Shown here: piece by piece, positions 2,039-30,200 of the stretch
Layout: each line of letters starts with the position of its first letter
Position numbering within the stretch: the stretch's first letter is position 1
Virus record (IMG/VR): IMGVR_UViG_3300025132_000152
Span: 1 to 33,458 of that record
Source: a virus
DNA length: 33,458 nt
Direction: 5' to 3' (one strand)
Position numbers and translations under genes: made by a program
The notes under the pieces: generated by a model
The model's input: only the letters and a program-made list of their open reading frames with translations
Database searches by the model: none
What the model was told of the DNA's origin: nothing

Positions 2039-2257
2039 TTATAGTTTCATAACTGTAGGAAATTTTGGAAATACTTGAAATGCTTTTACTTCAAAGTCTA
2101 AAACTTCCCAATCTTGTGTAAATTGAGCAAGCTTTACAGCTTCTTCTTCGTTTAATGCCTGGATTACAGTTTGAAATCCTGTGGCGTTTATTTCTTCCAA
2201 GCCTATGTAAACGGCTGGAACTCTAATCACCCAAGCTCTGATTTTTAAATCCTGCAA
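2039..2257 (-). CDS. Small hypothetical protein after terminase
   Basis: A frame of about 72 residues overlapping the 3' end of the large terminase gene. I chose TTG at 2257, which has AAGGA about 10 nt upstream and keeps the whole first strand (KIRAWVIRVPAVYIG). GTG at 2230, overlapping the terminase stop, is an alternative. The longer frame up to ATG 2326 is less likely because its first 23 residues lie wholly inside terminase coding sequence. The product looks like a compact alpha/beta protein: a beta strand, EEINATGFQTVIQAL, then a helix EEEAVKLAQ and a strand DWEVLDFEV. I do not know a function. Confidence 0.6.
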   Translation of the reverse strand: MQDLKIRAWVIRVPAVYIGLEEINATGFQTVIQALNEEEAVKLAQFTQDWEVLDFEVKAFQVFPKFPTVMKL

Positions 2258-3968
2258 GGGAGATCCATCCTTCTTCCGTTTCGGCTTGCGGAATTTGATC
2301 CAGGGGGAGGCCCAAAATTCTTGCATCTAAAGCTCCTTGTATATCCCCATTGTAAGCAGCAATTTCAAGATCCCACAACTCTGCGTTACGTTCTTGCATT
2401 GCGTTCTCTTCATCTATAGCTAAAGAATCATTCCAATATTCGACTGCTCCAGCCAAAGCATCAAGCCTATCGTCATGTTGTAGTGAGTTTCTATCGACTG
2501 TCAAATGGGTTAATTGATGAAATAATTGATAAGCCAGGGATGTTTCTACGCTATCTTCGTCTTTTGCCTTACTATCGTTCTCGACAACCGACCTATTTAT
2601 AATTAATCGGTGTTGGTTCATCACAGGTTCTAGCGCATTTATAATTCTTCTTTCTTTTTGTACGTTACTTCTAGCTGGTTCTACAGTACATGGGTATATT
2701 CTGCGCAAATATGGCTGCAAAAGGCTCTGTAACATCCCCTGACCAAATTGATCTTCCAGGATGATTAAGTTTACCTCTTTTCTTTTAGCAGCTTTTGCAA
2801 GTCCTTCTAAAACAGGCTCTGTATATCCTTCTCTAAATGATCCTACCTCTAATACAAATAGATTTCCGTTAAGTTGAGCAACTATAGCGTATGCTGTTTC
2901 ATCCATACCTTTACCAGAAGGATCAACAAACATTACGCATCCGTCAAACTCTATCCATTCTCCGTGTATATAAGCTGGTCTGTGGTAGTAATCTCCACTA
3001 AATCCTACAGCTGGTAAGTCTCCTATCCTATATTCTGCACCTGACGACCATATAATCTTCTCTGGAGCGTGGTCATCGACCTCCATTACGACTAAATCTG
3101 ATAAACGTAAAGGGAATCTTTGTAAATCTGACAGACTAGTGTCTAGTTGAAACTGTAAAACAAACTGTGATCTACCATAACTGGCTTCTCTTTCTAACAA
3201 ATCTATCTCAGAAAATCTATCTGGATCTGTAGGTTTACCTGGGTTGTCCTTACATCCGTCTAAAATTACCTGAGCTAACGCATCTCCGTACTTTTCTGGC
3301 TTCTTTGGGTAACGACTTGTCCATATTTTGCAGTCATATCCCCTCATTCTTAGCTTGTTGTAGATACTTTCCTCTGTTTGCGGTGTACCTAAGAACAAAA
3401 TATCTCCACCAGGTTTAAGAATAGCGTTAAATTCACCGACACAAGCTATAAGTTTCTCTCTCATACCTACTGTCCAGGCTGTATTCGGTACTTCACAGTC
3501 ATCAGCAAGTATTAAATCAGCACGACTACCTGTTAACTGTCCGAAAACACCTACACTTTTTACAGATGCCGACTGATCTGGGATAGCTGGCCTTACATCA
3601 AACCTGTTACTCGCACTTCTTTGCTCTTCTCGATCAGGTTCTAAGCATTGCAGTATAGGCATCTCTCTAATAAGCCTTAAACAAAACTGTGCAAAGTCAT
3701 CTGCCCTGGTCTTCGAGGCCGACACCACCATTATCTTCTTTTGTGGATCATTTCTTAGTAACCATAAAGTATAAGCAGCTGCCATCCACGACTTACCCAC
3801 TCCTCTAAACGCTTCAATAATCCTACGTTTCTGTCCATTCTGCATATACCCTGCAATATCTAACTGTATAGGCGTTGGATTAGGAAGTTGTAGATGCTTC
3901 CATACAATCACTAAAAAATATCTAAAGTCTTCATCGTAGGGTTTTGGTAACTTATCCCACTTCTTCAT
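2223..3968 (-). CDS. terL: Terminase large subunit (gp19-like packaging ATPase/nuclease)
   Basis: A 581-residue DNA packaging motor subunit, the size of T7 gp19 (586 residues). The N-terminal ATPase has a Walker A-type loop RGVGKS (residues 55-60) and a Walker B segment DLILADDCE with acidic residues 156-157. The C-terminal RNase H-like nuclease shows FVDPSGKG with Asp349, ILEDQFGQG in the middle, and HDDRLDAL with Asp503, matching the usual metal-binding acidic residues. It would bind the portal, pump DNA into the prohead and cut concatemers in the cytoplasm. The gene overlaps the probable small subunit gene upstream by 4 nt. It lies on the minus strand, opposite to the rest of the virion genes, whereas T7-type genomes usually keep terminase collinear with them. 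Confidence 0.95.
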   Translation of the reverse strand: MKKWDKLPKPYDEDFRYFLVIVWKHLQLPNPTPIQLDIAGYMQNGQKRRIIEAFRGVGKSWMAAAYTLWLLRNDPQKKIMVVSASKTRADDFAQFCLRLIREMPILQCLEPDREEQRSASNRFDVRPAIPDQSASVKSVGVFGQLTGSRADLILADDCEVPNTAWTVGMREKLIACVGEFNAILKPGGDILFLGTPQTEESIYNKLRMRGYDCKIWTSRYPKKPEKYGDALAQVILDGCKDNPGKPTDPDRFSEIDLLEREASYGRSQFVLQFQLDTSLSDLQRFPLRLSDLVVMEVDDHAPEKIIWSSGAEYRIGDLPAVGFSGDYYHRPAYIHGEWIEFDGCVMFVDPSGKGMDETAYAIVAQLNGNLFVLEVGSFREGYTEPVLEGLAKAAKRKEVNLIILEDQFGQGMLQSLLQPYLRRIYPCTVEPARSNVQKERRIINALEPVMNQHRLIINRSVVENDSKAKDEDSVETSLAYQLFHQLTHLTVDRNSLQHDDRLDALAGAVEYWNDSLAIDEENAMQERNAELWDLEIAAYNGDIQGALDARILGLPLDQIPQAETEEGWISLAGFKNQSLGD

Positions 3969-4201
3969 GCAGATTTACGCTTAAAAGCTACAACCTTATC
4001 TATATCTGGTAAAGCTTTAGCAAGATCATCAATAGCACTTCCCTCTGTAACTGTAGCTGTTATCTGATTATCCTTAAGAAACTGCCTAATCACATTAAGA
4101 TCAGCGACTGTCGCCTCTCCACTGTCCAACAAACTAGCTAAATGTCCAGCAAGATTAGCGTGTAGATTACTTAGCTGTTCTGCTACATCTTTTTGTTTCA
4201 T
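3965..4201 (-). CDS. terS: Probable terminase small subunit (gp18-like)
   Basis: A protein of 78 residues from the ATG at 4201 (MKQKDVAEQLSNLHANLAGH), close to T7 gp18 in size (89). Its helical first half, central segment (VADLNVIRQFLKDNQI) and basic end (VAFKRKSA) are consistent with a small terminase that recognises DNA and feeds it to the large subunit. The stop overlaps the ATG of terL by 4 nt, supporting the assignment. A GTG at 4324 would add 41 hydrophobic N-terminal residues with no clear homology or ribosome binding site, so I prefer 4201. Identification rests mainly on position, size and coupling. Confidence 0.7.
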   Translation of the reverse strand: MKQKDVAEQLSNLHANLAGHLASLLDSGEATVADLNVIRQFLKDNQITATVTEGSAIDDLAKALPDIDKVVAFKRKSA

Positions 4202-4526
4202 AACTTTCTGTAATTCTGTAGGGAACTCAACCCACCACGGAAAGATCCCTAAGAGTGTAAATGCGGAGGTAAAACACATCCTTAATATAACACTTATATA
4301 ACCTTTGTATTGCTGATTGTCCACTATAGAAGAACAGGGAGATATACAGGGAGTAGTCTATCTTAGATATATCTTAGATTTTAGTTAGAAAAATCTGAGG
4401 GGTTAACGTATAGACGTTGCTGCCTCTTTACCCCCCTAGGGGGTGTCCAAGATATGTCCAAAAACAGTCTAGGGGGTCTATAGTCCTTGCTCTCACTAGG
4501 TTATTAGTCCTTGAAGTATTGTTATA

Positions 4527-6833: not shown

Positions 6834-7031
6834 ATGGAAACAACTAAACCAAAAGGAGAAAAGGTACAGGCAACACTTAGCTCCGAGACTTTTCGCAGGG
6901 TCAAGGCACTAGCTAAAGCTAAGAACATATCTGACAGTGAGGTTATGAATTACATAGCGCAGTCCTGGATGGTCGATAACTTCGATAAAGAGTATGGATT
7001 TTGGAAGAAGAAAATACAAGAACAGAGTTAG
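6834..7031 (+). CDS. Ribbon-helix-helix regulator (CopG/Arc type)
   Basis: A 65-residue protein with a ribbon-helix-helix pattern: a strand VQATLSSETF followed by two helices (RRVKALAKAKN and SDSEVMNYIAQSWM). Such proteins dimerise, place the paired strands in the DNA major groove, and act as repressors or partners of other DNA-binding proteins. The gene overlaps the start of the RNA polymerase gene by 31 nt, so translation of the two is linked. It could set the early-to-middle switch or act on host promoters. Its targets cannot be read from the sequence; the short palindromic or repeated elements near 4.36-4.57 kb are candidates. Confidence 0.6.
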   Translation: METTKPKGEKVQATLSSETFRRVKALAKAKNISDSEVMNYIAQSWMVDNFDKEYGFWKKKIQEQS

Positions 7032-9382
7032 ACCAGGAGAAACTTGAAAGGGAGATGCTAACTCTAGGCTGCGATAGAGTTAGACTCCTGGGTAATCGAC
7101 AAAAGAAAAACAAAATGGAGTCTCTCTCTAAATGGGGTGAGGCTCTATCTGCACATGGATGCAATGAAATAGTCCTGCACTTGCGAGCTATCCGTAAGAA
7201 GATAGAGAAGGGAGTAGCTGGTAAGAACTTTGCTAGTCTTATGCCCTTAACTTTTCTTCCTGCTCAACAAGTAGCTGCTTGTGGGGTGCGTACAGTAGTG
7301 GATAGTCTCAGTGCTAATCCAACTTTGCACTCTGTTGCTACAGATATAGCTGATAAATTATGGATAGAGACAATGCTCGATAGGGCAAGCCTCCTAGAAT
7401 TAAAGAACTTTAGGCGTGGTAGAAGTAGAAAGGCACATAAGATGGCTTACATCAGGAGGATGGAGGCCACAGAAAACTGGACTCCTAAAGAAAGGATGGC
7501 ATCAGGAGTCCTGCTCATTGAATTGATAGAAAAATATACTGGATTGATAGAGATAAAGCTAGACAAGGCAGTTAAACCACCGAGAAGAATAGTCTTGCCG
7601 ACTGAGCAATGCCTTGAATGGGTAAGTAATGTAAAAGACCAGCAAGAATTGATGACTCCTAACTGGTTGCCTATGTATATTCCTCCCCGACCCTGGACTA
7701 GCACCCTTGATGGAGGTTACAGAAATAAAAATCTACCGCTAACTCTTATGAAGAGTAACTCTGAGCTAGTAGCACAGAGAACTACAGGTAAAGAACAGTT
7801 TATACAGGCAGCAAACGTACATCAATCAGTACCCTGGATGGTAAACAGTTGGATGTTGGAGCAAGTTACCCACGCATACGAAAGAAACATAGAAGTTGGC
7901 TGCTTATTACCAAGGGAGGGGTGGCCTGTTGATCCATACCCCAAGCATTTACCAGAAGATCACCCAGGTATTATCAAATGGAGGTATAAAGCTAGAGCTA
8001 TACACGAAAAGAATGATAAGACCAGGGGTGGAAGGATCGCCCAGGCTAAAACATTATGGGTAGCACAGAAATTCAGAGAAGAGAAAGAGATATATTTTCC
8101 TATGAGCCTAGACTTCAGAGGCAGATACTACTACCGACCTCCTTACCTCAACCCTCAAGGTAATGATGTATCAAGGTCGCTATTATTATTTGCTAATGGT
8201 ACTAAGATAGATAGTCCAGAGGCAGAGAACTGGCTACGCATACATGGTGCTAACTTATATGGCCTGGGGAAATCAGATTGGCAGACCAGGATAGATTGGA
8301 CTGAAGAAAAACTTAGATATATCTTAGATGCTGGTAAAGATCCCTGGACTAACGCAGAATTTTGGATGAGAGCAGATAAACCCTGGTCATTCTTAGCTTT
8401 TTGTCGCTCCTTCTATCTATACAGGACAATTCCAGATTACAAATGCAATTTACCAGCGATGTTGGACTGCACTTGCTCTGGAATACAGCATTATGCCTCG
8501 CTTTTAAGGTCAAAAGAGATGGGATTGCTAGTTAATCTTGAGAATGATGAGACACCAAGGGATATATATGCAGAAGTAATCAACAAAGTTAACAATAGAT
8601 TGCGTAAAAGTGACGATCATCGAGCAAAGAAGTGGTTAATGCTGCAACCTGATAGGTCACTAGCCAAGCCGTGCGTTATGACTACTCCTTACTCTGCTAC
8701 AAACACGGCATTTTATTTCTTTGCTTACGATTGGGCTACAAAAAGAGCTAAAGATTTGTATGGTCACGGCAGCTGGACTACAAAGAAAGGATCAATGTCG
8801 ACTATGCACTACATGGCACGCATATTACATACAGAAGCAACGTCATTAATACAGCCAGCAGTCGAAGCAATGAAGTGGTTTAAGTTTATAGGTAAGGAAG
8901 CAGGAAAGAATGATGTAGCACTTGAATGGACTACGCCTTCGGGGTTGTTAGTGCATCAGGAGTACAGCGACACAAAGTTATCGAGGATCAGGCTTAAGTA
9001 TTTATCAGATATTTATTTAGATATACGAACACAAGTAGATAAACCTGGCCTAGATAGCAAGAGAATGAGTTATGCTTTATCTGCAAACGTACTTCATAGT
9101 TTTGATAGCAGTCACATGGCAGCTACAACTGTGGATTCAATGAAATACATACAAAATATAGGAGGCATACACGACTGCTTTACCACCACTCCAGCAGAAA
9201 TGTCACAGCTAAGAGATTCAGTAAGAAAAACTTTTGCAGATATGTATGCACATGATTGGTTGTCAGATATAAAAGTAAAGCTAACATCACAAATACCAGG
9301 CACTAAGGGTATGCCTAGTGAGCCACAGCACGGAACTCTTGACCCTAATATCACACGTCATTCAAATTATTTCATCACATGA
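7001..9382 (+). CDS. T7-type single-subunit RNA polymerase (gp1)
   Basis: A 793-residue DNA-dependent RNA polymerase (T7 gp1 has 883) that would transcribe the replication and virion genes. Visible landmarks: LDFRGRYY near 370-377; the catalytic Asp489 in LDCTCSGIQH (T7 Asp537); AKPCVMTTPY with Lys556 and Tyr564, eight residues apart as are T7 Lys631 and Tyr639; and GGIHDCF with Asp725 (T7 Asp812). The C-terminus ends in aromatic YFIT, recalling the FAFA end of T7. The start is TTG at 7001, overlapping the ribbon-helix-helix gene; ATG at 7055 is possible but would cut a conserved-looking N-terminal helix. The stop overlaps the SSB start (ATGA). The N-terminal promoter-binding domain is shorter than in T7, so the promoter is not predictable from T7. 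Confidence 0.96.
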   Translation: MEEENTRTELDQEKLEREMLTLGCDRVRLLGNRQKKNKMESLSKWGEALSAHGCNEIVLHLRAIRKKIEKGVAGKNFASLMPLTFLPAQQVAACGVRTVVDSLSANPTLHSVATDIADKLWIETMLDRASLLELKNFRRGRSRKAHKMAYIRRMEATENWTPKERMASGVLLIELIEKYTGLIEIKLDKAVKPPRRIVLPTEQCLEWVSNVKDQQELMTPNWLPMYIPPRPWTSTLDGGYRNKNLPLTLMKSNSELVAQRTTGKEQFIQAANVHQSVPWMVNSWMLEQVTHAYERNIEVGCLLPREGWPVDPYPKHLPEDHPGIIKWRYKARAIHEKNDKTRGGRIAQAKTLWVAQKFREEKEIYFPMSLDFRGRYYYRPPYLNPQGNDVSRSLLLFANGTKIDSPEAENWLRIHGANLYGLGKSDWQTRIDWTEEKLRYILDAGKDPWTNAEFWMRADKPWSFLAFCRSFYLYRTIPDYKCNLPAMLDCTCSGIQHYASLLRSKEMGLLVNLENDETPRDIYAEVINKVNNRLRKSDDHRAKKWLMLQPDRSLAKPCVMTTPYSATNTAFYFFAYDWATKRAKDLYGHGSWTTKKGSMSTMHYMARILHTEATSLIQPAVEAMKWFKFIGKEAGKNDVALEWTTPSGLLVHQEYSDTKLSRIRLKYLSDIYLDIRTQVDKPGLDSKRMSYALSANVLHSFDSSHMAATTVDSMKYIQNIGGIHDCFTTTPAEMSQLRDSVRKTFADMYAHDWLSDIKVKLTSQIPGTKGMPSEPQHGTLDPNITRHSNYFIT

Positions 9383-9993
9383 CTACTAAAAGAAAAACAC
9401 TAATCACAAAGACACCAGTTTGTAGATTCCAATACACCTGGGTAGTAGAGGCAGACACTAAGTATGAACCAATGTGGAAGGTTACTTGCCTTATACCTAT
9501 GGATAAAGCACTCGACTTAGAAAAAGAACTGGAAGGATTCCTTGAAGAACATAAGCAAGAGGTTAAAGCTGCTGATCCTGACAAGAAATTTAAGTTAGCT
9601 AACAAGCCCTGGAGTTATGAAAAGATAGACGATGGAGAAGGAGAACAGGATTACTTTGTTGTAAAAACTAAGATGCCAACAGGAGGTATCAATAGAACTA
9701 CAGGAGAGCAATGGCACATGACACCACCTGTATTATTTAATGCAGATAACCAACTGATGACAGAAGAGGAGAAGCAGAAGGTTAACAAGTGTGGTCAAGG
9801 TACACTAGGACAAGTCAACTTACGCTGCCAAGGTTACTCTGGTAATTTTGGGGTGGGTGTAAAGATACAACCACAAGCAGTAAAGATACACAAACACGTT
9901 GAGTATGTTAAATCAGCCCAGGACTTCGGCTTCGATGCGCCAAGCAAAGCAGTCATACCACTCGAAGCGGACTTCGACTCAAACGAGTTCTAG
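9379..9993 (+). CDS. ssDNA-binding protein (gp2.5-like)
   Basis: A 204-residue single-stranded DNA-binding protein of the T7 gp2.5 type, with an OB-fold-like middle and the signature acidic tail ending in an aromatic residue (EADFDSNEF). In T7 this tail contacts DNA polymerase and primase-helicase, and the protein coats ssDNA and promotes annealing. Here it is kept although no phage polymerase gene is seen. The gene starts in ATGA overlap with the RNA polymerase gene, and its last 59 nt also encode the start of endonuclease I. The assignment rests on position between RNA polymerase and gp3, size, and the acidic/aromatic tail. Confidence 0.88.
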   Translation: MTTKRKTLITKTPVCRFQYTWVVEADTKYEPMWKVTCLIPMDKALDLEKELEGFLEEHKQEVKAADPDKKFKLANKPWSYEKIDDGEGEQDYFVVKTKMPTGGINRTTGEQWHMTPPVLFNADNQLMTEEEKQKVNKCGQGTLGQVNLRCQGYSGNFGVGVKIQPQAVKIHKHVEYVKSAQDFGFDAPSKAVIPLEADFDSNEF

Positions 9994-10375
9994 ATATAGA
10001 AGTAAATTCGAGGCAACTGTTGCTAAGAACCTTGATGACAACAAAATTAAATTCTCTTATGAAACCCTCAACATTGATTACATCCTCAATAGCAGTTACT
10101 GCCCTGACATCATCTTCGATAATGGGATTATATGCGAAATTAAAGGCGTACTCGATAAGGAAACAAGGAGAAAACATCTTGCGGTCAAGGCGCAACATCC
10201 CGAATTAGACATACGTTTTGTATTTCAGAACAGCAAGAACAAACTAACTAAAGCTAAAGGAAGTCTGACTTACGCCAAGTGGTGTGATAGGCACGGCTTC
10301 CTATACGCTGACAAAATTATCCCACCAGAATGGTATGCAGACAAGCAAATACATAAGCAAAGAGCCTTGCCCTGA
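9935..10375 (+). CDS. Endonuclease I, Holliday-junction resolvase (gp3-like)
   Basis: A 146-residue protein from the ATG at 9935, close to T7 gp3 (149). Conserved features: YRSKFEATVAKNL with the first catalytic Glu, the CPDII Asp, and the CEIKG motif (E-x-K) of the metal-binding site, then RRKHLAVKAQHPELDIR and a C-terminal IIPPEWY, all matching T7 gp3 in order. It resolves branched DNA before packaging and helps degrade host DNA. AGGA lies about 10 nt before this ATG; ATG 9905 or TTG 9899 would extend it further into the gp2.5 gene. The 3' end overlaps the primase-helicase gene by 41 nt. Confidence 0.93.
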   Translation: MRQAKQSYHSKRTSTQTSSRYRSKFEATVAKNLDDNKIKFSYETLNIDYILNSSYCPDIIFDNGIICEIKGVLDKETRRKHLAVKAQHPELDIRFVFQNSKNKLTKAKGSLTYAKWCDRHGFLYADKIIPPEWYADKQIHKQRALP

Positions 10376-11951
10376 GTGTCAATCAAAAGATAACGTAGCT
10401 GTCTATGACGATGGACATAAGTATTGTTTTGGCTGCGGTTGGCAGTTCCAACCACCTAAAGATAAACCTATTAAGTTTGAGAAACCATTTAAGATGAAGG
10501 TCACACCTCTACTTCCATTCGTTACACCAAAGGAATTGCCTAAACGTGGAATCACCAAAGAAACTTGCGAACTATATGACTATGGGTATGCAGAATTTAA
10601 CAACCAGGTAGTCCAGGTTGCTACATACCACGACAAGATAGGCAAGCCTGTTGCACAGCATCTTCGATACAAAGATAAAAGATTTGGATGGGTCGGAGAC
10701 ACTAGCAATATGCAACTTTGGGGTCAAAAAATTTGGAGACAAAACCACGGAACTGAAACCAATATCTTTGCTGTAATCACAGAAGGAGAAGTTGATTGTC
10801 TTACTATCTCACAGATACAAGGTAATCGTTTTCCTGTAGTTAGTTTGCCAAATGGCTGTCAGTCGGCTAATAAGTACATAGCTGCAAACTTAGAATGGTT
10901 ATCACAATTCAATCGTATTGTTATTTGTTTCGATAGTGACGAGCCTGGCATGGCTGCTGCCGAGAAAGCAGTTGAAATCCTACCTCCTGGAAAGGCAGCT
11001 ATATGTAGATTGCCAAGAAAGGATGCTAACGAAATGCTCCTCGCAGGAGAAGGGGAAGAACTTAAGGATCTCTTATGGAAAGCAATCCCTGCTAGACCAG
11101 ATGGAATACATAACGCCTATGATTTATGGGAACAACTGATAAAGAAAGACGAGACAGGTGTATGTAGTTATCCATATCCAATACTTAACAAGATGTGCCA
11201 GGGGTTTCGTAAGCAAGCACTCGTAACTATCTGCGCAGGAACAGGGTCGGGAAAGAGTTTACTCTGTCGAGAATTTGCTTATCACTTTTTAAACAATGGA
11301 TTAAAGGTGGGTTGGATTGGATTGGAAGAGAGCAGTAAGAGAAGTATGCAAGGCATACTGTCTGTTGCATTAAACAAACCATTGCATCTTAAGCAGGAAG
11401 AAGTAGATGAAAAAGAATTACGCCAGGCATTTGACTACTTGTTTGCTGGCAATAGGTTCTTACTCCTGGAACATTTTGGTTCACTAGATCCAGATAGGTT
11501 ACTAGAACAGATAACATACATGGCAACAGGAGAGAACTGTGACGTTATCTTCCTTGACCACATTAGTATTGTTGTCTCAGGATTAACTGTTGGAGATGAG
11601 AGAAAGCAAATTGATGTATGTGTTACCAAGCTAAGACAAGTAGTAGAGAAGACAGGGGTAGGTTTAGTTATGGTCAGTCACTTGCGTAGGACTGATGGTA
11701 AACCAGCTGAAGATGGAGGCGACATAAATCTAGCTAGCTTGAGAGGAAGTTCAAGCATAGCCCAGTTATCCGACCTCGTAATTTGCGGCATCAGATCACA
11801 GACTGACGAAGAAAAGAACAATGAACTACAACTAAAAGTGTTAAAGAATAGACACACAGGTTGTCTAGGGATGGCAGATAAACTTACATATACAGAAGAG
11901 ACAGGTAGACTTGCAGCTACAGCTGCGGATTTTTTTGGAGAAAAATTATGA
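10335..11951 (+). CDS. Primase-helicase (gp4-like)
   Basis: A 538-residue bifunctional protein (T7 gp4 has 566) that primes and unwinds DNA at the fork. An N-terminal zinc ribbon has Cys12, 15, 31 and 34. The Toprim primase core shows TEGEVD (Glu150, Glu152) and DSDEPG (200-205). The RecA/DnaB-type helicase has Walker A AGTGSGKS (301-308), Walker B DVIFLDH (403-409) and a VSHLRR motif. I chose the ATG at 10335 because it directly precedes the zinc ribbon; an upstream frame extension lies inside gp3. The C-terminus (TAADFFGEKL) lacks the long acidic tail by which T7 gp4 contacts DNA polymerase. The stop overlaps the exonuclease ATG by 4 nt, where T7 would have gene 5. Confidence 0.95.
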   Translation: MQTSKYISKEPCPECQSKDNVAVYDDGHKYCFGCGWQFQPPKDKPIKFEKPFKMKVTPLLPFVTPKELPKRGITKETCELYDYGYAEFNNQVVQVATYHDKIGKPVAQHLRYKDKRFGWVGDTSNMQLWGQKIWRQNHGTETNIFAVITEGEVDCLTISQIQGNRFPVVSLPNGCQSANKYIAANLEWLSQFNRIVICFDSDEPGMAAAEKAVEILPPGKAAICRLPRKDANEMLLAGEGEELKDLLWKAIPARPDGIHNAYDLWEQLIKKDETGVCSYPYPILNKMCQGFRKQALVTICAGTGSGKSLLCREFAYHFLNNGLKVGWIGLEESSKRSMQGILSVALNKPLHLKQEEVDEKELRQAFDYLFAGNRFLLLEHFGSLDPDRLLEQITYMATGENCDVIFLDHISIVVSGLTVGDERKQIDVCVTKLRQVVEKTGVGLVMVSHLRRTDGKPAEDGGDINLASLRGSSSIAQLSDLVICGIRSQTDEEKNNELQLKVLKNRHTGCLGMADKLTYTEETGRLAATAADFFGEKL

Positions 11952-12691
11952 CGCTATTAATTGATGCTGATTGGCTAATCTATTCTTCTTGCTGTGCTTG
12001 CGAGACAGATTTTAGGGCTGACGATGGATCGCATTTACTGCACAGTACAGAAAAAGACTGCATGGATCTAGTCGACTTACGGATAGAAGGATATAAGAAG
12101 TTAACTAATGACAACAGCGGAGTGATAATGTGCTTCACTCAATACCCAACCTTTCGTCATGGGATATACCAGGACTACAAAGCTAACAGGGTAGGCAAGC
12201 GTCATCCACTAGCATTGCGTGATGTCATACAAATAACTAAAGAGTGCTATCACTCTGTTGCTTTTAACGGACTCGAAGGAGATGACGTAATGGGATTATT
12301 GGCAACGAATGGTCAGCATGATAATCCTATTATTGTTTCTCCAGATAAAGATATGAGAGGAGTACCTTGTACCCTACTTGCTAACGATGACCTTGAATTA
12401 ATTACAAGAAAGAAAGCAGATAGACATTGGATGCAACAGGTATTATCAGGAGATCATACAGATAATATCGAAGGACTTGTAGGAGTTGGGCCAAAGACAG
12501 CAGAGAAAATGTTAGAAGGTGCAACTACTGTCGAAGAGATGTGGGATAAGGTAGTGAAAAGTTACGAAAAGAAAAACAAAACCTATGCCGATGCAATAAT
12601 GACAGCCCAACTTACTCGCATCCTTCGGGATGAAGAGTACAATTACACTACAGGAGAGGTACAGTTATGGCAGCCATTGACGATACAGTAA
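11948..12691 (+). CDS. 5'-3' exonuclease (gp6-like, FEN/PIN fold)
   Basis: A 247-residue 5' nuclease of the FEN superfamily, shorter than T7 gp6 (300). Metal-binding acids are in place: Asp6 and Asp8 (LLIDADW), Glu110, Asp112 and Asp113 (LEGDDVMG), Asp133 and Asp135 (SPDKDMRG), and Asp169 and Asp172 (SGDHTDNIEG). A helix-hairpin-helix follows (VGVGPKTAEKML). In T7 the enzyme removes RNA primers and degrades host DNA to supply nucleotides. It is immediately downstream of primase-helicase with a 4-nt overlap. In the absence of a phage polymerase it may work with host DNA polymerase I or III. Confidence 0.92.
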   Translation: MTLLIDADWLIYSSCCACETDFRADDGSHLLHSTEKDCMDLVDLRIEGYKKLTNDNSGVIMCFTQYPTFRHGIYQDYKANRVGKRHPLALRDVIQITKECYHSVAFNGLEGDDVMGLLATNGQHDNPIIVSPDKDMRGVPCTLLANDDLELITRKKADRHWMQQVLSGDHTDNIEGLVGVGPKTAEKMLEGATTVEEMWDKVVKSYEKKNKTYADAIMTAQLTRILRDEEYNYTTGEVQLWQPLTIQ

Positions 12692-20801: not shown

Positions 20802-21452
20802 ATGTGTAGTGCTGTTGCTATTGGTATTGTTAGTGGAATTATGAGCATAGGTCAAGCTATTGCTCAAAACGCTGCACAGAATAGGCAGATAGAAGTAGCA
20901 AATTTATCTGACGAGTTTCAATACGATTACAATAAACTCTCTGCTGCTAATCAAAGAAACTTTGAAGCTAATCAAGAAACACTTAGAAATCAAGAGATGG
21001 AAATGAACGAAGAGTTAGCGTTAATAGCAGAAGCAAATAAATTAAATCAAACTAATTTACAGTTAAGAGAGATACAACAAAAAACTGCCCAGGAGAAAAG
21101 ACAAGCATCTTTAGAAGCTAAGAAACAACAAGGTACAATACTTGCAACAGGAAGGATAGGGGCTAACGTAGCTAATTTATTGGCAGATGTTAACAGACAG
21201 TTAGGACAATACGATTACTACAGCGATAAGAATTTAGCTTTTGCTACAGCTGGTAAGCAACAAGAAAAAGTAGGTTACATAACGGAAAGAGCCAGCAGAA
21301 TAGCAAGCATATCTCCATATCTTAAGAAAACTATTCTTGATCCTATGAAACCTGTACCTCGACCTAAAGTAAGCGTAAGCCCATTTTCTATCGGTGCTGG
21401 CATTATGAGTGGTGTTAACGCTGGTGTTAATTACAAAATTGCTAACTCCTAA
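20802..21452 (+). CDS. Internal virion protein B (gp14-like)
   Basis: A 216-residue protein, similar in length to T7 gp14 (196). It starts MCSAVAIGIVSGIMSIGQAIAQNAAQ, a hydrophobic helix like that of gp14, followed by a long Gln/Asn/Glu-rich helical region (to about residue 150) and a Gly-rich end. T7 gp14 is ejected first and forms the pore in the outer membrane. The MC start is shared with the protein at 12872. It begins 2 nt after the gp13-like stop and its own stop overlaps the next ATG (TAATG). Confidence 0.88.
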   Translation: MCSAVAIGIVSGIMSIGQAIAQNAAQNRQIEVANLSDEFQYDYNKLSAANQRNFEANQETLRNQEMEMNEELALIAEANKLNQTNLQLREIQQKTAQEKRQASLEAKKQQGTILATGRIGANVANLLADVNRQLGQYDYYSDKNLAFATAGKQQEKVGYITERASRIASISPYLKKTILDPMKPVPRPKVSVSPFSIGAGIMSGVNAGVNYKIANS

Positions 21453-24274
21453 TGGCAAAACTTTCTCTTGGTCAAAGCACAGGCGACACTAGCCGTAAGA
21501 CATCTAAAAGGTTATTAGGTCAATATGGCGTTGACTCTACTATTACTACGCAATCTATAACTCCTCCTGGACTAAAGCCTTCTGCTTCTATTGTTGACAC
21601 TTACCAGCAAGTAGAAAAGATGAACGTACCTAGCGTGCAGCTAGGAAGGTTTGCAGATATGAGCGTAGGGTTTGATAATTCAAAAGATTTACAAAATTTA
21701 GCTAACTCACTTGGACAATTTAATAGTCAACTGCAAACTACAGTTGGTACTTTAGCTAAAAGAAAGAAACAAATAGATACAGAAGCGAAAGATTTTAGTA
21801 AGAGTTTGGTACTGCAAAACTTTGGCAGTAAGAAATCTCCTGTAGAAATATTGCAAGATACCAGGCAAGATTTAAGTAATGTTATTGCAGATAAAACAAC
21901 GTCTTTAGAAGAAAAGAAGGCAGCAGAAAAACAATTAGATTATATAGACGCTAGAAACAATATATTAATACCTCACTTACAGTCGCAGAACAGAATAATA
22001 ACTATACAAACAAACGCTGCAAGCTTATCTGGCAAGGCAAAGGGTGCAATGGTAATAGCACCAGATGGAACAGAAGTGCCTTTAAGCTCTCTTCGACCAG
22101 ATAGTGATTTATATATGCAATGGAGAAAAGAATCTGTTTATGGAGATAGCAATGGGAACATAATACCTTTGACAGATAAAGAAGGGAAAGAAGTATCGGC
22201 TACTGTCGTATCTGCCTACGCAAATGATATTAATAGGCAAGAAAAAGCAGTTATACAATACAACAAAGATAAGTATGAAGATGAATCTTTAGTACACGTT
22301 GATGCTTTGGCAGGGATGCACATAACAGGGAACAGCCCAGACGATGTAATTACAAAATTAAATAATATATTAGATGACTCTAGATTTATGCAGCTGTATA
22401 GAACTAAAGAAGATAGAGATGAATTTATTAAAAAGATATTAGTCCAATGGAATCAAAAGCTTTTACTACATGGATTGCAAAACAATAAATTCCTAGAGGC
22501 AGAAGAAGCTTTTGCTCCTTGGGAGCAGCTAATGACAGGTAAGAAAGAAGACAGGATAATAACTGACAAGAAAACTGGAGATGAAACTATAAATGAAAAT
22601 TTAAAATGGTATAAGACGCAAGCTCCTGGATGGTTAATTAACACACAAACTGCATACACAAAAGCTTTAAAAGAATACAAAAGCCTTAATAAGACTACTC
22701 AGGAACAAAAAGGTAATCAAGCTATTACAGATGGTTTTACAAAAGACATACTTCCTTTGTATAAAGATATAGATAAGATGGCAGGAGAATCAGAAGATGG
22801 TTTTGCAGATCCAAAAGTAGGTCTTGAATTAAGAAAAGCTAATGAAAAGTATCAAGAGTTAAAAGAAACAATTACTGCAAACGTACCATTAGAACATCAA
22901 GCTAAAGTTCTAGAGTATGCAAACAAACTACAAAAAACTAACGATTCCTTATTTTTTGGCGCAGAAAGAACACAACTAAAAAATGACTTAAGAAAAGAGT
23001 TTAGGCAGATATTTCAAAATCCAAGATTAGCAATTAAGTTTAGAGAAAAAGTTACACGATTAACTAATGAAGGAGCTATATCAGAAGACTTTGGTATGAA
23101 TTTTATAAACAGAAGTAACAACCTTGTAGAAGGTGTAGCTGAACCTTCACAGAATTTTGCTAATGAATTAATTAGTAATGAGATGGAAAGATGGACAGGG
23201 AAAGATGGTTTCTTTTTCTCTTCTGCTTCTGGCTCAAGTGAATTTACTCTTGATGAAATGGGTGCAGCTAACAAAGCGGAAAATATGATGATTGATATGT
23301 CTAGCGATATAATTCAAAAAGGATTAAAGGATGGTAAATCAGATAATGAGATACAGGCAGAGCTAACAGAACTATTCCAAAATAATAATTTTGGCTTAGT
23401 ACTTCCAGAAAATACAGATGCAAGTGTAGGAATAACTTTTAAATCAGTTAATGATTTTAAGAACCAATATTTTGGCAGAAATTATAAGAGTGGCATAGAT
23501 AGTCAAGAAGCAAAACGACTCAAGGAAATGTATAAAAGCAATCAGCCAATGTTTGCAGAAGATGTATTTATAGAATTATTAGATGAATGGAATACCAGCG
23601 GTAAAGTTGATAGAGATGTTCAAAAGTTAATTAGAAGTTTAGGTAAGATTAATAACGGAGTAGATCCAGAAACCTTTTTTATAAATCAACTAGGCAAACA
23701 TAATATGACAGATAAAGTGCCAATAAATAATATTAAAAAATTTAATCGTGAATATGCACTACAAGAGATTGTTCCCAGGCAGCCATCATTTATAGAAAGA
23801 TTTGCTGCTGTACCTGTTAACTTATTATTTGGTGGTGCAGCTAATGCAGGAGAGTTAAGAAATACAGATCCATATAATTATCAGCCTCCAGAGGGAACAC
23901 AGACAGTTGCAGACATATTAAAGATAAGTTTAACCTCTGACTTTACGAGTGATGAAGCTGTAATTATGGCAGCCATAGGAATGGCAGAATCTAGTGGTAG
24001 ACCACTTGCACATAACACAGAAGGGGATGATAACAGTTACGGAATATTCCAAATAAATATGTTAGATAGACCTGGATTTATGATGGGAGAAGAGCGTAGA
24101 GGTCAATTTGGGTTAAACTCAAATGAACAACTGTTTGATCCATTAATCAATGCTAAAGCTGCTAAGTATATTTATGATATGCAAGGCTTTGAAGCATGGA
24201 CAGTTTACAGAACAGGTGCTTACTTAAAGTATCTACCAGCAGCGCAAGAAGCTCTAAAATCACTTTCTAATTAA
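21452..24274 (+). CDS. Internal virion protein C (gp15-like) with C-terminal lysozyme domain
   Basis: A 940-residue protein (T7 gp15 has 747). Residues 1 to about 800 are mainly helical, as expected for the gp15 ejectosome tube in the periplasm. The last 110 residues form a lytic transglycosylase (SLT/lysozyme-like) domain: MAESSGRP with the probable catalytic Glu846, NSYGIFQIN (861-869), and FEAWTVYRTGAYLKYL near the end. It would open peptidoglycan for DNA entry. In T7 this activity lies at the N-terminus of gp16, so here the domain sits on the other side of the gene boundary. A Pro-rich and Gly-rich linker lies at about 800-825. The stop is 2 nt before the next ATG. Confidence 0.9.
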   Translation: MAKLSLGQSTGDTSRKTSKRLLGQYGVDSTITTQSITPPGLKPSASIVDTYQQVEKMNVPSVQLGRFADMSVGFDNSKDLQNLANSLGQFNSQLQTTVGTLAKRKKQIDTEAKDFSKSLVLQNFGSKKSPVEILQDTRQDLSNVIADKTTSLEEKKAAEKQLDYIDARNNILIPHLQSQNRIITIQTNAASLSGKAKGAMVIAPDGTEVPLSSLRPDSDLYMQWRKESVYGDSNGNIIPLTDKEGKEVSATVVSAYANDINRQEKAVIQYNKDKYEDESLVHVDALAGMHITGNSPDDVITKLNNILDDSRFMQLYRTKEDRDEFIKKILVQWNQKLLLHGLQNNKFLEAEEAFAPWEQLMTGKKEDRIITDKKTGDETINENLKWYKTQAPGWLINTQTAYTKALKEYKSLNKTTQEQKGNQAITDGFTKDILPLYKDIDKMAGESEDGFADPKVGLELRKANEKYQELKETITANVPLEHQAKVLEYANKLQKTNDSLFFGAERTQLKNDLRKEFRQIFQNPRLAIKFREKVTRLTNEGAISEDFGMNFINRSNNLVEGVAEPSQNFANELISNEMERWTGKDGFFFSSASGSSEFTLDEMGAANKAENMMIDMSSDIIQKGLKDGKSDNEIQAELTELFQNNNFGLVLPENTDASVGITFKSVNDFKNQYFGRNYKSGIDSQEAKRLKEMYKSNQPMFAEDVFIELLDEWNTSGKVDRDVQKLIRSLGKINNGVDPETFFINQLGKHNMTDKVPINNIKKFNREYALQEIVPRQPSFIERFAAVPVNLLFGGAANAGELRNTDPYNYQPPEGTQTVADILKISLTSDFTSDEAVIMAAIGMAESSGRPLAHNTEGDDNSYGIFQINMLDRPGFMMGEERRGQFGLNSNEQLFDPLINAKAAKYIYDMQGFEAWTVYRTGAYLKYLPAAQEALKSLSN

Positions 24275-24276
24275 TC

Positions 24277-27200
24277 ATGCCAATAGAAATTTATAAAGAC
24301 GAAGAAGGCAACGAAAAGAAGCGTTACGTTCTACCTCAAGGGGTAGCTGTTGAAGAAGAGTCACAAGTACAAGATCAAGAAACAAGTAATAATGACGATG
24401 ATTTTGGAGATGCTATAGGAAGAACTCTTGCACAAGGTGGTCGTGATTTAATACAAAACATATACGATGCAGGATATGACACTTTAGCTGACTTAGGTTT
24501 TCAAGATAACGCAGGAAAAACAGATAGATTTACAGGAGAAGAAGCACCTCCAGGGTTGCAATTTGGTTTAAGAAATCCATTCCAGGGAGAAGACGAGGCA
24601 GGAAATGATTACAGAGGGCTAATGCGTCTTAACCCTTTAATGAAATACAGAGAAGAAGGAGACAACAGAGGATTACTAGGTTTAACTCCTACATCTTTTG
24701 ACAAGCCTGACGCACCTTTACCTTTGTATGGAAAGCCGTTACCAGAGTTTGCAGAGAACGGAGCAGAAAGATTTGTTGGGCAAATGATTTCTTCCATATC
24801 GCAGTTTATGATTATTGCGAAAGGATTAAAAGCTAGAGGAATAAAAGTACCTCAAGTACCTATTGGGGGAGCAAAAGCAAAAGCATTATTAAAGACTCCT
24901 GGAGCAAAAGGAATAGTACAAAGAACAGGAGGTAGGTTTATTAGAGGAGCGCAAGAAGGATGGTTGCCTGGTGCAATAAATGATGTTGCGCTAGAAGATC
25001 CTTGGGATGGTAACGCTGCAACTATGTTTAGCGCAATGCTTCCAGATGGAGAAATTAAAGAATTAGTAAATGCTTTTCAAGTAGACGAAGACGATAGCCG
25101 AGCAGAGGCTATGTTAAAGAATGGAATTATAGGTACATTCTTAGCTGGCCCATTATTAGGAGGTGCTGTAGAGCAGATTGGTGGTGCAAAAAGAGAAGGC
25201 GTAATATTAGTAAATGCTTTTGCAGATTATTTAACTAAAGGAGCAAAGGTAGCTAAAAAATTAGATATAGAAAGAGGTGTAAAAAATCCATTCAAACCAG
25301 CTACAGATAAACAAGTAGAAGAGATAGGAATAGTAAAACTTACAGGTAGAGAAAAGAAATCAGCAGCAGATCAAGCTGTAGAGATAATTGAGAAGCAAGA
25401 CAAGATACAAAAATCAAAAGATTTTCAAGGAACAACAGGAACACAACTAAGAACAGATGGAATATCAGAAGAACAGCTAGGTACTGGAGAAGCGTTGCGA
25501 CAATACGAAGCAGCAGAGAAAAACTTAAAGACTGTTATATCGAGAACAAAGCACATAGCAGAATTACAAGGAGGTATTGACACAACTAAAAATGTAGATA
25601 TACAGCCTCCTACTAGCGAAAGTATGGCGACTATAGATACCAATAGTATTCTTGTAGATCCAAAAAGATTTCAATTTAAAGATTTGGGTAGGTTAAATAA
25701 AGTTGGTACAAGTGGATCTTTAAGAAATATTGCTACATATAACAGCGATTTAGCTGGTGTAATAAGTGTGTGGAAAGACCCTGTAGACGGACAGACTTAT
25801 GTGGTTAATGGTCACAACAGATTAGCAGCTGCAAAGATAAATAACTTTCCAACAATGAATGTTAGATACCTAGAAGCTCCAGATGCAGAAACAGCAAAGG
25901 TAAAAGGTGCTATGCAAAACATTGCAGAAGGCAATGGTACAGGTGTTGACGCAGCAAAAATAATGAGAAGCACAAAGATGGGTGCAGCAGAAATGATGAA
26001 GCAAGGTATAAGCCCAAGTGGTGCTGTAATGAAAAAAGCAATACCTTTGTCTAAACTTCCAGGGTCTTTATTTGACCAGGTAGCTGCTGGAAAAATGACA
26101 GAAGATATGGGAGCAGCTATAGGAAGTAGCAATGCACCAGATCAAGTAATGTTTGACTTAGCTAAAGCTGCTAATAAGAAAGGTTGGAGTGCTAATAAAA
26201 CAGCAGAAGCTGCAAGTATTGCTCAATTTGCAAAGGTTAGCGAAGGTGTAGACCCTAACGCATTGCCTTTACCTGGCTTCGATAAGCTTATAACTTCTAA
26301 TTTTGAAAATATATTAAACGTCAGAATAGCTATAAGGTCGCAATTAAGGTCAGAAATTAACGCATTAGGTGTAGCTGCTAACGCAAAGAAAGCAGGAACC
26401 TTAGAAAGTGTTGGTAATGTAATTGATGTTGACGCAAGTAAAGCTGCAAGAGATGAATCTATGCAGGGAGAATTAATATTTAACAGGCTTGCAAATTTAA
26501 GTGGGCCATTAAATGATGTTATCAATGAGTTAGCAAAGAAAGTAAAAGGAAACACTAGGGCAGCTACTGTCGTACAAGGCAATATTAAAAAGATTAAAAA
26601 CGCTATAACTCAGGAAAATATAAAACCTCCAACACCTGTAAAGCAAACTCCTATAGCTCCAGAAAACGTAGTTAAAAACAATCCTACAGAAATTAACAAA
26701 AAACCTGATTTAAAAAATGTTCAAGTTACTGTAGAGCCAACAAAAGTAGGAACTACAAACACAACTGTAGAGCCAACACTTCCTAAAGATTTAAAAAGAA
26801 AAGATATTAACTATAGAGGTATGCGTGTATCTTTTGCTACTGACATTGATTACGCTGCATACGTTGTAACTAAAAAAACAGGTGGAGTAATTCGTGTAGA
26901 AACTCAAGGAGGTAGTAAAAGAAATGCTGATTATTTAAACTTTTTAATGAATGATGTCGGTTTTACAGAGCAAGATATTATTAGAATAAAAAGCAGAATA
27001 TTAGAAAATCTTTCCAATAACTACGCATCTGGATCAACATGGCGTTTTACAGGTAAAGGTAATTATTATTTCTTAGGATTAAAGCCTGGTCAACTTAATT
27101 TAGATCCTCTTAATGGAATAAATCCAATACACAAAAGATCTTACGGAACTTTAGGTAACGATTACTCAGGAGCTACTTTATTAAATTACAGAGAAAAGTT

Positions 27201-30200
27201 TGAGTTAGTAGAAGAGATAGAAAGAATGGCTGGAAAAGGTGTAAATATACAGTTTGTGAGAGAGTTGGAAGGCACGCTTACAACTAAACAAGCAGCAGAT
27301 TATGGACTAACAGAAGGAGATAGTTATAGCGCAGCTGGAGAATTTATTTCTGGTAAGAATCCAGCAGATGATTTGATAATGATTTCTATGTTTAGTAAGG
27401 GTGGTTATAGAGGATTTAGCAGTTTACTAAGAACTGCTTTTCACGAATCATTCCACAGGATACAAAAAAGATTACTTAGCAAAGCAGATAAAGAAGCTCT
27501 TATTGCAGGAGAGAAAGAAATAAGAGAGTTAGCTGCTAAAACTATGCCAGAGTTTAGAGAAAGCATCCTTGATGGCACATTAGGTAGACAAGAAATAGAA
27601 GCTATAGCGTTTAGTGATTGGTATATGCGTAATACAGATTATCCAAAAGCAACCTGGTCAGAGCCTTTTAGAAAAATTGCACAGATTATTGAACGTACTG
27701 GCAACTTCTTAAAAGGTAGAGGTTATCAAACCTGGGATGACGTATTTGAAAGATCAATGCGTGGAGAAACAGCAGAGCAAGCTTTAGGAGACAGTATATC
27801 TGCACCAGCTACACAATTAGCTATAGATCCTCCAGACCCAGACTCATTTACAAAAGCATTTGACGACAACTTAGAGGCAATAAACAACGGAGATATGTCT
27901 ATCGAGGATGCACTAGCTAACGATGCAAGAAGATTAATTAGTCGTAGTGGTAAAACACAATATGTAGAATCTCCTACTGAAGCAACGCTTGCAGCAAATA
28001 AAACTATTAATGATGTACTTTACCAGCATCTTTTTGATAGAGCAGAAGCTACAGGCATACCTACTCTTAGCCAGGCTGTTGTTTTTAGAGGTGCTATAAA
28101 CTTTTTAAAAGAACACGGAGGAGATGCAGAGACATTAATACCATTAGTAGAACGTGCATTAAAAGGTGATCTTAAATCACAAGAAGATTTAATAGCTATA
28201 AGAGCATTGCAAATACAAAGAGATAGAGTTCTTAAGAAGTTAGGAGTACAAGCCCAGGCTTACATGAGTGCAGCTGGAACAGAAAAGGCGACTGAATTAC
28301 AAGGATTAAAAGCAATGTTAGGAGATCAAATAAAACTAGATATTGCTTATATGAGTCCATTAAGAAAGTCAGCCCAGGTTTTAAATCTTGGTAAAACTAT
28401 GTTTAGAGATGACATAGACTTAGCTGATTTACCTAGTGAAGTAACACTTAGAAAAGGTACATCTAAAGAAAGCGGAGAAAAAGCACTTGCAGATGGTTTT
28501 GACACAACGCAAGAAACAGGATCTATGGGTCAAGCTGTTTACTTTACTACTGATGAAGGCAGCATTAAATTACAAGATGGGTTTGACAATGCAGAGGTAT
28601 ATGGCGATTTGATAAACGACATAAAAATATTAGATTTATCTGCAATGAATAAAAGGGTAACTGACCTTATAACTGATTTAGGTTTAGGACAACCTAAGAA
28701 AACAAAAAATGGATTGGAACTGACACCAGAACAAATAGAAGGTGTAAAAGCATTTTTAGCAGAAAGAGGTTATGCAGGAATAAGATATGAACCTAGAGAT
28801 ACTGGTCGCCCTAATGCGCCAGCAGATGAAATAGCTATCTTTGATAACAATTCTGCAAACAGAATAGTAGGTTCTGATGCAAGCGTACCTCCAACAGCTA
28901 CTCCTGATGCGCCTAAGAGAACATTATTAGAGCAAGCTATCAGTAAATCTAATGATGTATTAAATGAAAAGCTAGATCCAGACTTATTAGAAGCTATTGA
29001 TAACGGAAAATTAACCCCAGAAGCAGAACAAGCTGGCGATGTAATGGTTGCTATTACAAATTATGCACAACAAAACAAAGGTTTTAATAAGCATTTTACT
29101 GATCTTATAGAACAGACACCAGACAAGTCACTTACAAGTAAAAGACTTCTTAACTACTATCGAGGCGCAATTTTATTATCAGGCGAAACTACCTGGAAAA
29201 TGATGATAGGTGGTTTATACAGAGCAGCTACATTGCCTGTAATACAAAGCATGGGAGGCTTTACTCAAGGTTTTGCCCAATCACTCAAAGGAAATAAAGG
29301 AGCAGCATATAAGAGCTACAGAAGGGCAAGGTTAAGCGCAATGCTTTATGGAAAATACTATCAAAATCTAGGTAATGCTTTACGCCTAATGAAAGCAACT
29401 ATTTTAGAAAACGAAACATTTGGAAATTTAGGCGTGGATCAAATGCAACTAAGAGGAGAAAGCAAATATAACCCTGTAGAACAAATGAATTTAGGTAGTT
29501 CTAATTTAGAAATAAACAAAAAGAATGATATATGGTACACAGATCCAAATAATAAAAACTGGATTGCTAATACACTTGTAAGAGTTGCATCTGTTGTTCC
29601 TAAAACTACAGGTAGATTAGCTGGATCTGTTGATACTCTTATGAGTTCATTGGTTGGGCCAAGTCAAGAATGGGTTAGATATGTAGACCAGGAGTTATAT
29701 AAAGCAGAGACAGTATTAGGTATGCGCCCTGGATCTAACGAAGCTTGGGAGTACGCAAGCAATAAAGCAACTGAACTAGTAAAAGCTGAAATGGTTGACG
29801 TTACTTTATCTAGTGGAAAAACAATACAAAACGCAGCACTTACAGGTCAAAATGGAAAATACGTTATGGATTGGGTTAACTTTACTGACTCTTTAGATGT
29901 TGTTCCAGCACCTCGTACTTACGAATATGGAGTTAGAGAGGCAAGAGAAAGTGGTATAACTGATCCTACTGAAGTCCATAACCACGCAAAATCGTATGTT
30001 GATAACGACTCTAATATTTTTAAAGAAAATAAAGTCGCAGGAGCAGCACAATTTTTAGGTGGCATACCTAAAGCTATGGGTAATCTTGTAGAAAATAACC
30101 CTGCCTTTGGTCTTATTTATCCTTTACCTAGAGGGCCAGTAAACATTGTAAAAGCAAGTGCAAGGTCGTTGGGTGTTACTGCACCATTAGTAGATACATT

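Follow-up and report, generated by a model that had tools for sequence, protein, structure and literature searches.

A marine T7-like cyanopodovirus of the MPP-C lineage without a DNA polymerase gene and the altered helicase tail of its pol-less clade

The DNA analysed here (the window, 33,458 nt, GC 38%) is a linear, incomplete record of an uncultured virus from which ca. 4 kb of its own genome is absent. Its replication module is summarised in Table 1. The first-pass annotation had described an ATGA overlap between the primase-helicase and exonuclease genes with no polymerase gene between them, and this arrangement is seen directly in the sequence (gap of -4 nt). The primase-helicase also matched the Pfam families Toprim_2 (1.8e-10), Helic-prim_T7_N (6e-14) and DnaB_C (1e-16). 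That the phage keeps its own primase-helicase, single-stranded DNA-binding protein (SSB), exonuclease and resolvase, as had been proposed, was borne out by Pfam or PHROG matches for all four. The dN/dS values of the replication genes ranged from 0.05 to 0.22, indicating that the RNA polymerase (RNAP), SSB, primase-helicase, resolvase and exonuclease are under purifying selection and thus still work. The primase-helicase had the lowest value (0.049) among the seven genes compared; as the most constrained of them, it is in use. No separate lysozyme gene was present between endonuclease I and primase in the window, unlike T7 and pelagiphages. A 940-aa protein in a T7 gp15-like position (21452-24274) has a C-terminal lysozyme-like domain (SLT_3, 6e-13).

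Table 1. Features of the replication module in the window
Feature	Coordinates	Strand	Evidence
T7-type single-subunit RNA polymerase	7001..9382	+	PF00940 1.2e-73; phrog_414 1e-176; dN/dS 0.09 vs P-SCSP1u
gp2.5-like ssDNA-binding protein	9379..9993	+	phrog_112 5e-17; C terminus ...DFDSNEF, acidic, terminal Phe
T7 endonuclease I-type resolvase	9935..10375	+	PF05367 1.3e-41
T7 gp4-type primase-helicase, 538 aa	10335..11951	+	phrog_239 1e-162; ends ...AATAADFFGEKL, without acidic -[DE]F tail
T7 gp6-type 5'-3' exonuclease	11948..12691	+	PF02739 1.1e-13; PF01367 8.7e-11; phrog_107 9e-57
ATGA overlap, primase-helicase stop/exonuclease start	11948..11951	+	sequence; kept in related assemblies

The replication region of the window shared ca. 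84% DNA identity over 9-14 kb with 17 complete P-SCSP1 genomes, and its primase-helicase was 95.7% identical in amino acids to that of P-SCSP1u, which falls in the window's 85% identity cluster. Compared with the whole window, P-SCSP1u (37,861 nt) aligned in collinear blocks of mostly 71-83% identity, and the map opening point differs between the two records. The window has a T7-like architecture with a single-subunit RNAP, has no DNA polymerase gene when the missing ca. 4 kb is judged from P-SCSP1u, and was placed with P-SCSP1 and P-SCSP2 in both the primase and exonuclease trees; the published MPP-C phylogeny is based on a nine-gene tree (PMC9860041). The window is therefore most of a genome of a marine T7-like cyanopodovirus of the described lineage MPP-C, as judged from its sequence, and the pol-lacking lineage named in the first-pass annotation was the right one. 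The absence of the polymerase gene (pol) from MPP-C is already known, and nearly half of all surface-ocean reads from cyanopodoviruses are reported to belong to this lineage (PMC9860041); the window adds a member. None of psbA, hli, rnr, talC, thyX and mazG was found among the window proteins scanned, which represent part of the frames, ca. 4 kb of the genome lying outside the window. The large terminase gene and the gene preceding it (2223-4324) lie on the minus strand, likewise in P-SCSP1u and unlike T7 and P-SCSP2. Two adjoining small proteins encoded on the minus strand at 593-1504 have signal-peptide-like N termini (MKKLLLLPLLLASPIYA and MRKLLLLFFLYVLPANA).

Profiles of family A (PF00476), family B (PF03175) and family C (PF07733) polymerases gave no match in the window. 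PF00476 was positive in 9/9 pol-bearing T7-like phages used as controls (E of 1e-32 to 1e-51), so the search was sensitive enough, and it gave no match in P-SCSP1u, P-SCSP2 and MedDCM-C159 or among 20 related contigs from IMG/VR (31-39.7 kb). In pol-bearing relatives, the primase-exonuclease interval measures 1.8-4.2 kb and contains pol. The segment that the window lacks has its counterpart at ca. 28.6-33.1 kb of P-SCSP1u, where the remainder of the tail fibre, another tail-fibre-like protein and small frames are encoded and no polymerase match was obtained. These results, including the profile check of the missing part through its P-SCSP1u counterpart, agree with the earlier claim that the window carries no polymerase gene.

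The record is linear and incomplete, and the missing pol could in principle be an artefact, caused by an assembly deletion at 11948 or by the location of pol in the unsequenced remainder. However, P-SCSP1u and all close IMG/VR relatives read have the identical 4-nt overlap, and the junction shows short gaps or overlaps in P-SCSP2 and MedDCM-C159, which represent diverged lineages. Since the junction is common to independent assemblies and complete isolates, an assembly deletion was ruled out, and the P-SCSP1u counterpart likewise ruled out a polymerase in the missing part; an artefact is extremely improbable. A hidden family B or C polymerase was dismissed because neither profile matched. A phage-encoded polymerase too diverged for recognition is listed as possible in PMC9860041, and profiles cannot exclude an unrecognisable enzyme; the window contains a 2405-aa frame (24277-31494) with no Pfam match. 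This frame, however, occupies a T7 gp16-like position and matched phrog_21 of the head and packaging category (4e-46), the other large frames match virion or tail proteins, and the unassigned early and middle frames are all at most about 140 aa, which together make such an enzyme improbable. In the window, the remaining long frames that carry no enzyme name occupy the positions of virion proteins, and most of them match virion or tail proteins; the large P-SCSP1u frames without an enzyme name are virion- or tail-like or match no polymerase family. The phrog_21 match of the 2405-aa protein is local (residues 418-762), and its P-SCSP1u equivalent has 2563 aa.

The junction was compared among 283 loci of an IMG/VR scan including references, each containing a primase-helicase end and the downstream exonuclease. 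As counts that mirror the queries rather than abundance and include some contigs entered twice, 157/283 loci had no pol and 126/283 had it; apart from two loci, the former had gaps of -4 to +6 nt, and the latter had gaps of 1.8-4.2 kb. In a maximum-likelihood tree of the primase-helicases of 57 representatives (12 pol-less and 45 pol-bearing), from which the tail columns had been removed, the pol-less rows formed one clade with a support of 100/100, and they did so in the exonuclease tree with 100/99. The first-pass annotation had suggested trees of the RNAP and capsid proteins for this placement; the trees run were those of the primase-helicase and exonuclease, and they recovered the pol-less clade. 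Because the T7 outgroup and all other lineages are pol-bearing, one loss of pol is the simplest history, and the sequence trees are consistent with it. The 12 pol-less representatives at 85% clustering cover a GC content of 34-61%; so wide a clade implies an old, stable absence of pol and no recent defect. Three IMG/VR contigs of the clade (L161, L162 and L165) have GC contents of 58-61%; L162 comes from a 39.7 kb contig that shares synteny with the window, the reversed terminase included, and in which pol was not found. From the GC content of these members, hosts beyond high-light Prochlorococcus are likely. L161 and L165 are the pol-less loci with longer intervals (214 nt and 919 nt). Inspection by eye of these intervals for polymerase remnants revealed nothing polymerase-like. 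At this position, where relatives have pol, both loci have by eye an NrdR-like zinc-ribbon frame, and L165 also has an HNH-like frame.

In T7, the acidic tail of gp4 and its terminal Phe bind the gp5 polymerase (PMC12593628; PMC12230644; see also PMC5997990 for the helicase-polymerase interface). A terminal [DE]F was found on the helicase at 104/126 pol-bearing loci and at 0/157 pol-less loci. The window helicase ends in ...DFFGEKL and has no T7-type acidic Phe-ended tail. Among the representatives, the helicase tails had a median of 9 residues and a charge of -0.5 in the 12 pol-less phages, as against 14 residues and -3 in the 45 pol-bearing phages. In contrast, the [DE]F terminus of the SSB, which served as an internal control, was kept in 109/114 pol-less loci. 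Since the helicase is without the tail that in T7 tethers gp5/thioredoxin, coupling at the fork must differ from that of T7. The pol-less tails RLSVPMF and RLKLPLF were considered as sliding-clamp-binding peptides, a motif in which Gln is the key residue; they were rejected as this Gln is missing and RL is inherited from pol-bearing relatives.

The primase tree holds seven changes of the tail in all, those other than on the pol-loss branch falling among pol-bearing phages; a helicase without -[DE]F also occurs in several lineages that carry pol, e.g. HTVC119P. In HTVC119P (L034), a pol-bearing pelagiphage, the helicase ends in EHEEI and the SSB in KEDFI, with Ile in place of Phe in both, a hint from sequence of a common docking pocket for both tails, which would then change in concert. 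In the pol-less clade, pol and the tail changed on one branch, a coincidence of n = 1, and with only one independent contrast no statistical test of tail against pol is possible. The expectation in the first-pass annotation that protein contacts had been rewired towards host factors was thus upheld in part: the helicase docking tail is gone and the SSB tail is kept, which is specific support, from a single event. We infer that the loss of pol led to the tail change; the link could also be due to chance, or the tail change could be a by-product of the overlap newly formed with the start of the exonuclease.

The by-product reading holds that the tail change is unrelated to the polymerase: once pol was deleted, the primase reading frame simply extended into the region where the exonuclease starts, and its last codons were reshaped by that region. 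FGEKL of the window is encoded by TTTGGAGAAAAATTATGA, a likely ribosome-binding site and exonuclease start, and Shine-Dalgarno-like letters lie within 18 nt of the exonuclease start in 96/155 pol-less loci. However, the charge was lost along the whole tail after TGRL, beyond the overlapping codons and including a Glu near the tail start that is present in most pol-bearing phages, and it was also lost where there is no overlap (gaps of +2, +6, +214 and +919 nt). Codon overlap could thus explain part of the tail change but not the whole-tail charge loss, and as a full account it is possible but doubtful.

Three options for the enzyme that copies the genome, host Pol I, host Pol III and an unrecognised phage polymerase, have been offered without experiment (PMC9860041). 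In the mechanism proposed here, the ancestor of MPP-C would have lost the family A polymerase gene and adjoining small genes once; the phage, keeping its own helicase-primase, SSB, exonuclease and resolvase, would borrow a host polymerase, its helicase opening the fork and priming while the host enzyme synthesises DNA, Pol III holoenzyme more likely than Pol I. Copying of the MPP-C genome by a host polymerase is our inference, and Pol III was ranked above Pol I on the grounds that replication calls for a replicative enzyme and that the tail for docking on a family A partner has been lost. The reported latent periods (12-15 h; pol-bearing phages infecting the same host take 6-8 h; PMC9860041) are compatible with a borrowed host polymerase. 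DnaA boxes, a sign of host-type initiation, gave 1 match against 4.5 expected and hence no evidence of it. Host Pol I, which belongs to family A like gp5, might instead stand in for the phage polymerase, but it is mainly a repair enzyme. Moreover, the helicase tail that docks on the family A partner in T7 is absent, which mildly disfavours a like-for-like swap, and host Pol I is without the thioredoxin-binding domain, at which the second docking site of T7 lies. Pol I is thus unlikely as the substitute, even though it was put forward in PMC9860041.

Taken together, it is very probable that the window derives from an MPP-C phage whose ancestor lost pol once, and which kept its replication genes and would be copied by a host polymerase, with the fork coupling altered through the helicase tail. 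More tentatively, the loss of pol may have been followed by remodelling of the replisome interface, in which a short neutral tail couples the helicase to the host replicase and the SSB tail is kept for other partners, in a lineage that may extend past Prochlorococcus phages to high-GC hosts. What is new beyond the published absence of pol is the single pol-less clade that includes contigs of 58-61% GC, together with the loss of the helicase tail while the SSB tail is kept. The tail comparison raises a concrete question, namely whether a T7-type helicase without its polymerase tether now works with the host replicase. Two points deserve to be followed, namely that the tether was selectively lost throughout the pol-less clade and that this clade includes high-GC phages.

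Among known phages, the Prochlorococcus phages P-SCSP1a-u (MPP-C; OM416763-OM416779; PMC9860041) resemble the window most in gene order and reversed terminase genes, and share the order RNAP-SSB-endonuclease I-primase-helicase-exonuclease with the identical 4-nt overlap, the absence of pol and a primase-helicase of ca. 96% amino acid identity; their DNA identity to the window (ca. 84% over 9-14 kb; ca. 71-83% across the blocks that align with P-SCSP1u) is lower than the 95% by which populations were delimited in PMC9860041. P-SCSP2 and MedDCM-OCT-S08-C159 (Jalkavirus) likewise have the primase-helicase followed by the exonuclease, with no pol found and no acidic helicase tail, but share only ca. 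51% amino acid identity in the primase-helicase; in P-SCSP2, endonuclease I is not recognisable, an integrase is present and the terminase is forward. The pol-bearing marine Autographiviridae P-SSP7, P-RSP2, S-CBP42, the pelagiphages HTVC109P/HTVC031P and CRP-361 have the same order of the replication module flanking pol, but carry a family A pol in an interval of 1.8-4.2 kb and a helicase with, in most cases, an acidic -[DE]F end. Coliphage T7 has homologues of the RNAP and, as gp2.5, endonuclease I, gp4 and gp6, of the other module proteins, and differs in its gene 5 polymerase, which works with host thioredoxin, and in its gp4 tail ending in ...SNDTDF. Of the T7-type replisome, the window thus has the gp2.5-like SSB with an acidic Phe-ended tail and is without the family A polymerase (gp5) that the T7 helicase tail binds.
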